Both the position numbers and the translations under genes were made by a program. This document shows positions 1,114 to 22,471 of a DNA stretch of 53,708 nucleotides, piece after piece. The notes under the pieces were generated by a model. It was not told the DNA's origin. It worked only from the letters and a program-made list of their open reading frames with translations, and searched no databases. Numbering within the stretch: the first letter of the stretch is position 1; each line of letters opens with the position of its first letter. Location of the stretch: the NCBI GenBank assembly GCA_016650365.1, contig JAENVV010000188.1, positions 1-53,708 on the forward strand, read 5' to 3'. Source of the stretch: Acidimicrobiia bacterium. Its GTDB lineage: Bacteria > Actinomycetota > Acidimicrobiia > Spongiisociales > JAENVV01.

Positions 1114-1808
1114 CGGTACGGAGGCATGTCAGGGATACGCTTGGCACCCTCCCGATATGTCAATCCGGACATCTCGTGCCGATGGTCAAGAAGGAATCGG
1201 CGAACCGACTCAGCATTGAACCAGGAGTAGTCACGGAGGGCCCAGCCTATGGCCTTGCGAATGAAGAACTCCTTCTCGGGCAGGCGGGCCAGGCAGTGGT
1301 CGAACAGCAATGCCTCGTCTGTCTCCAGCTTGTGGCGAACCTGGCAGATGATGGCGCTTCTTCGTAGCCACATATCTTGACTGTCAATCCACGATCGCAC
1401 GATCGGAGTGACTTCGGTCCGTTGCTTCAGGAGAGCCCGGCCAACGGCGTGGATCGCCAGCTTGTCGACCAGATCCCACCATCCCCCCTCAACGATCAAT
1501 CGCTCGTAAAGATCGATCCACTCGACGGCGACGAACTTCTTGTGTTCGGTGGCATACCCCAGAGCAACGTACTTCATTTCACGCTGTGGCTGGTTCCAAA
1601 GACCCAGCACGGATAACTCATAATCGTCTGGCGTCTCGACGAGAAAGAGCTGTTTCGCCTCCCTAAGAACCAACTTGAGGTCCGCCGAGCCGACCCCATA
1701 GAAGGGCGTGTCGGTCTTCATGTAGGCGGCCATCTGGCTGGCGCGCTCGGCATCGGCCAGACCCGACAACTCAGAGTCCACGAACGAAACGAGACCTTCC
1801 ACATCCAC
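1110..1808 (-). CDS. DNA alkylation repair protein, AlkD-like HEAT-repeat glycosylase
   Basis: Resembles AlkD, the helical HEAT-like DNA glycosylase that removes N3/N7-alkylated purines. Family landmarks in order: YMKTDTPFYGVG near the N-terminus, NQPQREMKYVALGYA, GGWWDLVDKLA, DMWLRRSAIICQ and the strongly conserved EFFIRKAIGWALRDYS. The WWDLVD aspartate corresponds to the catalytic-region aspartate of the family. I chose the GTG at 1808, giving 232 residues and matching the usual 230-240. A start at 1886 or further upstream would run through the divergent DUF402 gene. A TAACTT -10 lies exactly 7 bases before this GTG, which makes a leaderless start plausible. It overlaps the downstream NUDIX gene by four bases. 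Identification is firm; the start is moderately supported. Confidence 0.85.
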   Translation of the reverse strand: MDVEGLVSFVDSELSGLADAERASQMAAYMKTDTPFYGVGSADLKLVLREAKQLFLVETPDDYELSVLGLWNQPQREMKYVALGYATEHKKFVAVEWIDLYERLIVEGGWWDLVDKLAIHAVGRALLKQRTEVTPIVRSWIDSQDMWLRRSAIICQVRHKLETDEALLFDHCLARLPEKEFFIRKAIGWALRDYSWFNAESVRRFLLDHRHEMSGLTYREGAKRIPDMPPYR

Positions 1809-1814
1809 GCCAGC

Positions 1815-1821
1815 TAAGTTA
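1815..1821. promoter_or_regulatory. Palindromic bidirectional -10 element between AlkD and DUF402
   Basis: The seven bases TAAGTTA contain TAAGTT on the plus strand, six bases before the ATG at 1827. On the minus strand they contain TAACTT, seven bases before the GTG at 1808. Neither gene has a Shine-Dalgarno sequence in the 18-base space between the starts. The simplest reading is two leaderless transcripts fired in opposite directions from one near-symmetric -10. Confidence 0.45.
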
Positions 1822-1826
1822 CCCGA

Positions 1827-2330
1827 ATGGTCGACCGGATGAGCTTGCAGTTCTTCAAGTACCCCGACGTTCCTCATTGGCGCCATGAAAACCTGCTCGT
1901 ACTTGGTAAGGACGAGCACGGCACCTGGCTGGGATGCGAGCCGGGCTCTGAACAACAAAAAGGGAACGGGCCCATCACAACTACGATGCACCCGTGGGTT
2001 TTTTGCTCGGTCCCCGACGCCTGGTGGTCGCTCGTATTCAACAGCGAACGCCCACTAACCCATTTCCTCGACATCATCACGCCGCCCAAGATCAACGGCG
2101 ACCGGATCGAGATGGTCGACCTGGATCTCGATGTCGTTCGAACTGCTGGGGGCGAGGTGTATATCGACGACGAAGACGAATTCATCGAACACCAGAAGCT
2201 GTACGGTTACCCGCCCTGGATGATCGACAAGGCCCGCACCACCACCGCCGAACTGGTGATCGCTCTCGAGAAGGAGGCGGAGCCCTTCACGCGCGCCTGC
2301 CAGGCTTGGTTCGACCGGTTCACGGCCTGA
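1827..2330 (+). CDS. DUF402-domain protein (167 aa)
   Basis: DUF402 (FomD/NtdP-like barrel) family; some members hydrolyse nucleoside di- or triphosphates, but the role here is not established. The diagnostic stretch is EMVDLDLDVV followed by GEVYIDDEDEFIEHQ and YGYPPWMIDKA, with the acidic cluster that binds metal in characterised relatives. Near the N-terminus, KYPDVPHW is also typical. The ATG at 1827 fits the leaderless -10 at 1815; a second ATG at 1839 is possible. The gene diverges from AlkD and converges with the ABC-F gene, with only 23 bases between the stops. It stands alone as a single transcription unit. Confidence 0.85.
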   Translation: MVDRMSLQFFKYPDVPHWRHENLLVLGKDEHGTWLGCEPGSEQQKGNGPITTTMHPWVFCSVPDAWWSLVFNSERPLTHFLDIITPPKINGDRIEMVDLDLDVVRTAGGEVYIDDEDEFIEHQKLYGYPPWMIDKARTTTAELVIALEKEAEPFTRACQAWFDRFTA

Positions 2331-20652: not shown

Positions 20653-21924
20653 CTATACGTGACCTGAGAAGTCGGACTCGTATGGCGTGAACTTCGAAGC
20701 CAACGCCGCCACCTCTCGCTTGACATCGGCCAGAACCACCTCGTCCTGATAGTGGTGAACGGCCCGTGAAATGAGCTGAGCCGCAGTTCGACAGTCGGCT
20801 TCCTCCATGCCCTGGGTTGTTATCGCCGGCGTCCCCATGCGAATACCTGAGGTTACGAACGGGGGCCGGGGATCGAAGGGAATCGAATTACGGTTCATCG
20901 TGATGCCGAGTTCGTTGAGCATCGTGGCGGCATGCTTACCGGTGAGATCGGGATCGACCGATCGAAGGTCCGCCAGGATGAGATGGTTATCGGTACCTCC
21001 AGAAACCACGCGAACCCCTTCGTCGATGAAGGTCTCGGCCATTGCCTTGGCGTTGGCCACCACCTGGGCGGCGTATGCCCGGAACTCAGGCTGGGCAGCC
21101 TCGTGGAAGGCCACTGCTTTGCCGGCAATCTGGTTGTACAGAGAACCACCCTGAGCACCAGGGAAGACGCCCTTGTCAATGGCCTTTCCGAACTGCTCCT
21201 TGGCCATGATCAAACCTCCCCGGGCTCCCCGGAAGGCTTTGTGGGTGGTTCCGGTCACGATGTCAGCGATCGGAACCGGGTTGGGATAGGCCTTACCGGC
21301 TATCAGGCCAATGAAATGAGCGGCATCGACCATGAAAATGGCACCGACCTCGTCGGCGATCGAACGAAACGCCTCGTAGTCGAGATGCCGTGAATAGGCC
21401 GAGTACCCGGCCAGAAGAATCTTGGGACGGCTTTCGAGGGCAATCCTTCGTACCTCATCCATATCGATGAGTTCGGTTTCGCGGTCGAGTCCGTACGAAA
21501 CGAAGTTGTAATACATCCCCGAGAAGTTGACATGCGAGCCATGGGTGAGATGCCCACCCTGATCAAGAGACATTCCCATGACGGTGGCGCCCAATTCGAT
21601 GAGCCCGAAGTACACGCCCATGTTTGCCTGAGCACCCGAGTGAGCCTGCACATTGACGTACTCGGCATCGAATAGATGTCGAACTCGGGCGTTGGCCAAC
21701 TCCTCCATCTCGTCGATCACTTCACAACCCTCGTAGTAACGACGGCCCGGGTAACCCTCGGCGTACTTATTCGTGAACACCGAACCAGTCGCCTGCATCA
21801 CCGCTCGCGATGCGAAGTTTTCAGAAGCAATCAGGTGGAGATGAGTGTTCTGGCGTTCAAGATCCTTGCGGATCAGAGCGGCCATCTCAGGGTCGACCTG
21901 TTCGAGTGGACGGTTGTCAATCAT
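20653..21924 (-). CDS. glyA: Serine hydroxymethyltransferase (423 aa)
   Basis: PLP enzyme that interconverts serine and glycine and supplies one-carbon units on tetrahydrofolate. HLIASENFASRAVMQA, NKYAEGYPGRRYYEGCE, VNVQAHSGAQANMGVYF and the PLP-lysine motif TTHKAFRGARGG (Lys229) are all intact. The ATG at 21924 has GGAG nine bases upstream; an in-frame extension to 21981 has no such site. In many actinobacteria glyA lies near this prmC/tsaC/atp block. Single-gene unit, divergent from the VOC gene with a 73-base spacer. Confidence 0.97.
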   Translation of the reverse strand: MIDNRPLEQVDPEMAALIRKDLERQNTHLHLIASENFASRAVMQATGSVFTNKYAEGYPGRRYYEGCEVIDEMEELANARVRHLFDAEYVNVQAHSGAQANMGVYFGLIELGATVMGMSLDQGGHLTHGSHVNFSGMYYNFVSYGLDRETELIDMDEVRRIALESRPKILLAGYSAYSRHLDYEAFRSIADEVGAIFMVDAAHFIGLIAGKAYPNPVPIADIVTGTTHKAFRGARGGLIMAKEQFGKAIDKGVFPGAQGGSLYNQIAGKAVAFHEAAQPEFRAYAAQVVANAKAMAETFIDEGVRVVSGGTDNHLILADLRSVDPDLTGKHAATMLNELGITMNRNSIPFDPRPPFVTSGIRMGTPAITTQGMEEADCRTAAQLISRAVHHYQDEVVLADVKREVAALASKFTPYESDFSGHV

Positions 21925-21985
21925 GGTCAGAACTCCACTTGGCGGCGAAACCGTGATCGTACCAGCGCCCGTCACCGTCACGGTC

Positions 21986-21991
21986 TAACGT
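21986..21991 (+). promoter_or_regulatory. Candidate leaderless -10 (TAACGT)
   Basis: TANNNT hexamer 6 bases before the ATG at 21998, in the short spacer between divergent glyA and the VOC gene; no ribosome site. Confidence 0.35.
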
Positions 21992-21997
21992 CCTGGT

Positions 21998-22471
21998 ATG
22001 GACTCGATAGGCCACCTCATCGAACGGTTCGACCATGTTGCCTACGCCGTGGAACGGATCGAGGACGCCCTCCCTCTCCTCGACATGCTCGGCGCCACGT
22101 TCTACGACGGGGCCGACCATGTACGAAACCAGTTCCGCTGGGCCCAGTTCACGCTGCCAGACGGAAGCAAAGTTGAGTACCTCGCTCCCCTCACCAACGC
22201 CAGTTTCCTGCGCCGCTTCCTTGATACTCGCGGGCCCGGTATGCACCATGTGACGCTGAAAGTGTCCGACCTCAAGCAGGCAGCAGAGCTCTGCGAAACG
22301 GCGGGCATCGCCGTCACCGGGTTCAGCGAGTCCGAGATGTGGAGCGAGCTGTTTATCCATCCAAAAAGCACCAACGGCGCCCTCATCCAGCTCGCCCAAT
22401 GGGACTACTCGTACACCCTGGCCGGCTCGCTCGATCAGGTGCTTGGCGGCACCGTGATTGACGAGACGTAG
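21998..22471 (+). CDS. VOC/glyoxalase-fold protein resembling methylmalonyl-CoA epimerase (157 aa)
   Basis: Two beta-alpha-beta-beta-beta modules: DHVAYAVERIEDALPLLDML at residues 12-31 and GMHHVTLKVSDLKQAAELC at 81-99. The overall pattern (RFDHVAYAV, FTLPDGSKVEYLAPL, HPKSTNGALIQLAQ) is that of methylmalonyl-CoA epimerase. Comparing from memory with the Propionibacterium enzyme (ligands His, Gln, His, Glu), this protein has His13, Glu60, His83/84 and Gln131, so the Gln and Glu appear swapped. Metal binding is plausible, but the epimerase reaction is uncertain. No mutase or carboxylase genes are nearby. Confidence 0.75.
   Translation: MDSIGHLIERFDHVAYAVERIEDALPLLDMLGATFYDGADHVRNQFRWAQFTLPDGSKVEYLAPLTNASFLRRFLDTRGPGMHHVTLKVSDLKQAAELCETAGIAVTGFSESEMWSELFIHPKSTNGALIQLAQWDYSYTLAGSLDQVLGGTVIDET

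Follow-up and report, generated by a model that had tools for sequence, protein, structure and literature searches.

The heptamer TAAGTTA, which lies between the divergent genes for an AlkD-family DNA glycosylase and a DUF402 protein in an Acidimicrobiia bacterium, is probably a shared –10 element of the bidirectional –10-symmetry type that superimposes two leaderless promoters. The window, which is the whole stretch of 53,708 nucleotides analysed here, is contig G000:C188, part of a 3.49-Mb draft genome (G000). The genes and the element concerned are as follows.

652–1113, – strand: NUDIX gene, with an ATG overlapping the AlkD stop codon (ATGA); Pfam E 1.1e-11
1110–1808, – strand: AlkD-family DNA glycosylase gene (PF08713, DNA_alkylation), with a GTG start, predicted to be leaderless; Pfam E 7.4e-57
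1809–1826: intergenic gap of 18 bp between the AlkD GTG and the DUF402 ATG, all of it putative promoter core
1815–1821, both strands: candidate shared –10 element TANNNTA (TAAGTTA), read as TAAGTT on the + strand and as TAACTT on the – strand
1827–2330, + strand: DUF402 gene (PF04167), predicted to be leaderless with its ATG on the predicted +1; Pfam E 1.1e-11

Geometry of the shared element

On the + strand, TAAGTT is followed by ACCCGA (6 nt) and then by the ATG of the DUF402 gene at 1827; on the – strand, TAACTT is followed by AGCTGGC (7 nt) and then by the GTG of the AlkD gene at 1808. The initial annotation had placed the two –10 hexamers at these distances, with 18 bases between the start codons and no Shine-Dalgarno (SD) sequence. 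Both hexamers are present, the 18 bases are borne out at 1808/1827, and none of five SD-like words sought within 20 nt of either start is found on either strand. Its description of the –10 as palindromic stands in part: the 7-mer is odd in length and not a perfect palindrome, but TANNNTA, with any three bases in the middle, does give TANNNT on either strand. No second TANNNT is found near the starts (1601–1900 on the + strand and 1751–2050 on the – strand), and no –35-like hexamer is seen at the usual distance in either direction when the sequence is read by eye.

Positions 1816 and 1820 of the element belong to the hexamers of both directions, with A(–11) and T(–7) being reciprocal base-pair partners. 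The transcription start sites (TSSs) are predicted at 1827 (+) and 1808/1809 (–), and would thus be 19 or 18 bp apart. Position –18 is G at 1809 for the predicted + start and T, opposite 1826, for the predicted – start. T(–18) is stimulatory in E. coli and is frequent, though not obligatory, in bidirectional promoters.

Leaderless starts in the same genome

The set of sequences from the same genome comprises 440,958 bases in 40 sequences, namely the window and L087–L126 minus L107, which is a duplicate of the window. The spacing between TANNNT and the start codon (d) is 6 in 28, 7 in 20 and 8 in 10 of 257 genes, against a background of about 3–4 genes per spacing at other spacings (n = 257). 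Pooled counts at d = 6 or 7 amount to 47 of 258 genes, whereas 13 other spacing pairs average 9.1. This excess argues that the genome does have genuine leaderless starts, and the spacings of the DUF402 gene (d = 6) and the AlkD gene (d = 7) are the two peak leaderless spacings of the genome. TA-led genes are reported to make up 19.2% of genes on average in Actinobacteria (PMC3160421), and TANNNT is reported at 73% of primary TSSs of M. tuberculosis, without a –35 consensus (PMC3898074).

TANNNTA occurs 44 times in the 440,958 bases. Among the occurrences with a spacing of 5–10 on both sides, only that at 1815–1821 has open reading frames (ORFs) that run for 60 codons or more from each of the two start codons. 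The whole 3.49-Mb genome contains 3 copies of TAAGTTA. Scaled from a window-shuffle mean of 0.59 per 53.7 kb, about 38 copies would be expected, and the heptamer is strongly under-represented in G000. Because a second TANNNT, once one leaderless TANNNT is present, costs only one extra base and a well-placed start codon, the palindrome alone is weak evidence, and the comparison of orthologues carries the argument.

Two other divergent pairs occur in this genome. At 20653–22471 of the window, the pair 21981(–)/21998(+) has a gap of 16 bp, with TAACGT 6 nt before the ATG on the + side and no TANNNT at leaderless distance on the – side. The genes of the pair at L099:6541–6573 are separated by a gap of 31; their TANNNT motifs, at d = 7 for the – side and d = 6 for the + side, are two separate, non-overlapping leaderless –10s.

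Conservation of the divergent pair in relatives

A divergent adjacent AlkD/DUF402 pair is found in five genomes (G000, G001, G003, G009 and G030). TANNNT at d = 7 of the AlkD gene is kept in all five, and TANNNT at d = 6 of the DUF402 gene is seen only in the three genomes of the same genus (G000, G001 and G003), in each of which the intergenic gap is 18 bp. Full sharing of the element is seen in this one genus only. Because the spacer of G001 is identical to that of G000, it is uninformative, and the informative comparison within the genus comes from one species, G003. G003 keeps TANNNTA with a change of the central G to C (TAACTTA). Its spacer is identical to that of G000 at 15 of 18 positions (P = 0.004 at an identity of 0.5 and 0.02 at 0.575); the third-position identity between the two genomes is 0.575 over the first 73 DUF402 codons and 0.474 in the AlkD gene.

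G009, which belongs to another family, has the arrangement CAT-N6-CAGGATA-N6-ATG. Its AlkD side has a perfect TATCCT at d = 7, and its DUF402 side has CAGGAT at d = 7, in which A(–11) and T(–7) are kept and –12 is C. In G030, a member of a third family, TAGCGT of the AlkD gene (d = 7) and TACCCT of the DUF402 gene (d = 9) overlap by two bases, an arrangement that by its calculated spacing resembles the published 23-bp configuration. Of the conservation in relatives that the initial annotation had named as a check, the 18-bp gap and TANNNTA are kept in G003, and full sharing is not seen in G009 or G030.

The AlkD and DUF402 genes lie close together on the same strand in G093 and G098 and about 6 kb apart in several f2 genomes, so their adjacency is not universal. 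Profile matches across the class place DUF402 in 61 and AlkD in at least 137 of 395 genomes, and among the matches listed for these 395 genomes there is no further adjacent divergent AlkD/DUF402 pair. The same-genus genomes G002 (68% complete) and G004 have no DUF402 match, and the AlkD match of G004 is weak.

Orthologue promoters and the terminal A

The orthologue set consists of deduplicated loci in which the alignment starts by residue 15, with more distant or truncated loci lying outside it. The loci are best matches and no random sample, and identical promoter contexts are dropped, so that G001 is merged with G000. TANNNT at d = 6 or 7 is found in 22 of 43 AlkD loci (16 at d = 7 and 6 at d = 6) and in 60 of 95 DUF402 loci (36 at d = 6 and 24 at d = 7). 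Most of these loci come from genomes in which AlkD and DUF402 are not adjacent, and by this motif spacing both genes look ancestrally leaderless. Because the relatives carry TANNNT at leaderless distance, the assumed start codons agree with them, and GTG 1808 and ATG 1827, the starts chosen in the initial annotation, are consistent with the spacings in relatives. G003 keeps the AlkD GTG at 1808 but not the in-frame GTG that follows it at 1802. The DUF402 gene has an alternative in-frame ATG at 1839, which is close to where many homologues begin; a start at this codon would mean a 12-nt leader.

The base after TANNNT is A in 3 of 22 AlkD and 3 of 60 DUF402 orthologue promoters. Four of these six cases are the two sides of the pair in G000 and G003 (4/4), and the frequency elsewhere is 2/78. 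In the same-genome set, A follows TANNNT at 2 of 48 starts, a list that does not include the DUF402 start; one of the two is the AlkD start itself and the other is in L117, which gives 1/47 besides AlkD (P = 0.0004, assuming an A frequency of 20%). Because a one-way leaderless promoter needs TANNNT alone, the terminal A is useful only as T(–12) of an opposing promoter. The rarity of A after TANNNT outside the pair suggests that A is avoided there except where the element is readable both ways, with few exceptions. The initial proposal that one –10 may be common to two divergent, leaderless genes thus gains support from sequence and comparison, through the spacings, the orthologues, the terminal A and G003.

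The start in L117, at 1476 (–), is leaderless-like with TAAAGTA. By eye, an opposite-strand ATG lies 6 nt from the mirrored –10, and its ORF is short, if there is any.

A conserved run in the DUF402 5' codons

The comparison of G000 with G003 reveals a further conserved feature.

1832–1868: run of 37 bp without a difference between G000 and G003; it falls in the first DUF402 codons and spans –24 to –60 relative to the predicted AlkD start

Within DUF402 codons 1–14, all 11 of the 11 degenerate codons for the same residue are identical between the two genomes, versus 18 of 43 in codons 15–73 (Fisher 4e-4). The first 14 codons of the AlkD gene, where the equivalent upstream region of the DUF402 gene lies, have 6 of 11 identical, versus 69 of 158 for the rest of the gene. 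In this one species pair, the conserved run could be an upstream element of the AlkD promoter or could reflect a constraint that acts on the DUF402 mRNA at its 5' end.

The position of this run on the AlkD upstream side, together with the retention of the AlkD TANNNT in 5/5 pairs and of the DUF402 one in the same-genus three only, would also fit a one-way promoter, in which TAACTT drives the AlkD gene, the DUF402 gene has only weak transcription or a promoter elsewhere and the + strand symmetry arises incidentally. This explanation is rather unlikely, because the terminal A, which is present in 2 of 78 one-way leaderless promoters outside the pair, is nevertheless kept in G003. Moreover, DUF402 orthologues are usually leaderless (60/95), and the + strand between 1601 and 1900 offers no other TANNNT from which the gene could be served.

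Survey of the architecture across the order

The survey covers 137 genomes of the order, with matches counted by hand. CAY-N6-TANNNTA-N5-RTG, which has the spacing of the window, gives 123 matches in 72 genomes, compared with 34 matches in 23 genomes for the control spacing N13/N12 and 46 matches in 36 genomes for N9/N2, so that the target spacing is 2.7 to 3.6 times commoner than the controls. The N7/N6 variant, a secondary count to which the site of the window does not belong, gives 69 matches in 49 genomes. A coding-like ORF is present on one side only at 75 of 116 distinct target places versus 17 of 40 control places (Fisher 0.016), and on both sides at 6 of 116 versus 0 of 40 (Fisher 0.34, not significant). 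The places read include 40 of 46 control matches and nine N7/N6 places hand-picked from the 69; identical contexts are dropped and the G003 site is left out. Because most places are one-sided, the two-sided form is not claimed to be common. An order-wide enrichment of double leaderless pairs was set aside for the same reason.

The two-sided arrangement is recurrent but rare. Among the other five two-sided places, both genes are supported by Pfam in three (L134, L204 and L238).

L134: inositol monophosphatase / apolipoprotein N-acyltransferase, Pfam support on both sides
L204: acyltransferase / AlkZ-like glycosylase, Pfam support on both sides
L238: HycI / TPR protein, Pfam support on both sides
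L226: RidA-like side supported by Pfam, the other side ribbon-helix-helix-like by eye

L215 has no Pfam match on the one side scanned. At the N7/N6 spacing, L253 and L254 (around 1001–1026), from two species, carry a mannose-1-phosphate guanylyltransferase-like / MGS_GT glycosyltransferase pair (Pfam on L253 only), and their shared TANNNTA differs by a central-base change (TACGCTA versus TACCCTA).

At several target places the palindrome looks like an operator that belongs to a ribbon-helix-helix or TetR-like gene, as named by eye. In L151–L156, L202, L207, L209 and L235, symmetric sites (CATATG...TACCATATGG, CATGTTCAATA...) are located directly before small ribbon-helix-helix-like or TetR-like genes, which suggests that these sites are autoregulatory operators over leaderless –10s.

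Such operator-over-leaderless–10 arrangements before regulator-like genes of the order, and the retention of the dyad GNTAANTTANC in G000, G001 and G003, would agree with TAANTTA (within GNTAANTTANC) being mainly a transcription-factor operator that controls both genes, over or near their promoters. This is improbable, because neither the AlkD nor the DUF402 gene encodes a regulator according to Pfam and GNTAANTTANC occurs once each in G000 and G001, solely at this site; further matches in G003 and G002 were judged by inspection to be coding, and there is no match in G004. Because the dyad does not recur upstream of other genes, there is no regulon, and TAANTTA was rejected as a regulon operator. 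Even less probable is a chance event, in which two divergent genes happen to lie close together around a TANNNTA that has no promoter function here: shuffling predicts the 7-mer about 0.6 times per window, and a single further base turns one leaderless –10 into the palindrome, but the spacing is correct on both strands, there is no other TANNNT, and both the orthologue spacings and the retention in G003 argue against it.

Proposed mechanism of the shared –10 element

The sequence, its spacings, the spacings of the orthologues, the base bias and the retention of TANNNTA in G003 are seen directly; from them we infer transcription and its start positions, the sequence in which events took place, and the mutual exclusion of the two orientations. 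TAAGTTA would be the shared –10 of a housekeeping-sigma promoter to which RNA polymerase binds in either orientation. In the + orientation, the DNA would open at TAAGTT and the first transcribed base of DUF402 would be the A of its ATG (1827). In the – orientation, the DNA would open at TAACTT and the AlkD transcript would begin with the G of its GTG (1808) or with an adjacent base. The two directions would share two base pairs, A(–11) of each being the partner of T(–7) of the opposite one. Because both mRNAs would be leaderless, the 18-bp gap would consist of promoter core alone, and further upstream promoter contacts of each gene would fall within the 5' codons of the other gene.

The AlkD and DUF402 genes would each have been leaderless before they met, and their two –10 boxes would have been superimposed once the genes came to lie directly side by side, in divergent orientation, in this genus. 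The polymerase would occupy one orientation at a time, and inverse coupling would probably arise only when one direction is strongly activated. A fuller scenario is tentative and, taken as a whole, doubtful: two independently evolved leaderless promoters may have collapsed into one –10, with the orientation of the polymerase picking the mRNA, the conserved element at 1832–1868 possibly biasing the direction, and G009 and G030 representing other stages or outcomes of the overlap.

The initial annotation had proposed that competition for the element couples expression inversely, which is not supported as the default. Five tested E. coli bidirectional promoters with a shared –10 are reported to lack basal competition, their basal activity being too low for polymerases to compete, and the partner is repressed only on strong activation of one direction (PMC12825309). 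Because basal promoters of this type in E. coli are too weak to interfere, near-independent low-level expression of the AlkD and DUF402 genes is to be expected by analogy, unless an activator favours one of them.

Gene products and their possible common role

The best PDB matches of the AlkD gene product are AlkD structures (E 4e-35), and the DUF402 product has a weak match to SA1684 (E 6.7e-5). The AlkD-NUDIX gene order is also found in G001 and G003, and the two genes probably form one operon. Where relatives of the DUF402 gene are named, they are mostly Acidimicrobiia MAGs, together with other Actinomycetota. AlkD is a DNA-alkylation glycosylase family, NUDIX is a hydrolase family, and SA1684 and FomD are nucleotide phosphohydrolases. 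AlkD, NUDIX and DUF402 may plausibly have a common role in the upkeep of nucleotides or nucleic acids. RNase W is reported to be a protein with a DUF402 domain (PMC11602121).

Significance and comparison with known systems

If the transcripts are as predicted, the AlkD/DUF402 pair would have about the most compact divergent layout possible, with no leader, no separate operator and one –10. It would link the literature on bidirectional –10 promoters with that on leaderless genes, which were not found joined in the literature searched. If true, this would suggest that phyla rich in leaderless genes can fuse neighbouring promoters by very few base changes. The pair would also be a natural setting in which to test polymerase competition simply, with no leaders to confound mRNA stability or translation. 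In titles and abstracts, with the subscription literature largely outside the search, no published case was found in which both sides are leaderless from one –10.

The original paper on bidirectional promoters reportedly dates from 2021. In bidirectional –10-symmetry promoters, –7T and –11A are described as reciprocal, and the TSSs are most often 18 bp apart, with 10 and 23 bp also common (PMC10268837). The element described here is like the bidirectional promoters of E. coli and Salmonella studied by Warman, Grainger and colleagues in that a pseudo-symmetric –10 is read on both strands (PMC12825309, PMC10268837); –7T and –11A are likewise reciprocal, and the predicted starts, 18–19 bp apart, are close to the commonest published distance of 18 bp (PMC10268837). 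However, the mRNAs of those promoters are not described as leaderless, a word that is absent from both papers (PMC12825309, PMC10268837), whereas here the start codons lie on the predicted TSSs.

Each side of the pair resembles the TA-led genes reported in Actinobacteria and M. tuberculosis, with TANNNT just before the start codon, no SD sequence and no –35 consensus (PMC3160421, PMC3898074). Those genes are scored singly, whereas here one element would serve two genes.

The csoR-cueA divergon of Bradyrhizobium liaoningense also consists of divergent genes, the –10s of which partly overlap; its csoR mRNA is leaderless by RACE, and its authors suggest polymerase competition (PMC5057107). Unlike the AlkD/DUF402 pair, it is reported as leaderless on one side, with cueA transcription starting 42 nt upstream and a CsoR operator controlling both genes (PMC5057107). 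The prpD (Rv1130)/Rv1129c pair of M. tuberculosis is divergent and leaderless on both sides by TSS mapping (PMC3898074). Its TSSs, however, are reported to be 120 bp apart, so that no –10 is shared, and both directions rise together in starvation (PMC3898074). Bidirectional –10 promoters and leaderless genes are thus both known, and the new feature of the AlkD/DUF402 pair, as predicted from its sequence, would be that both sides are leaderless from one –10.
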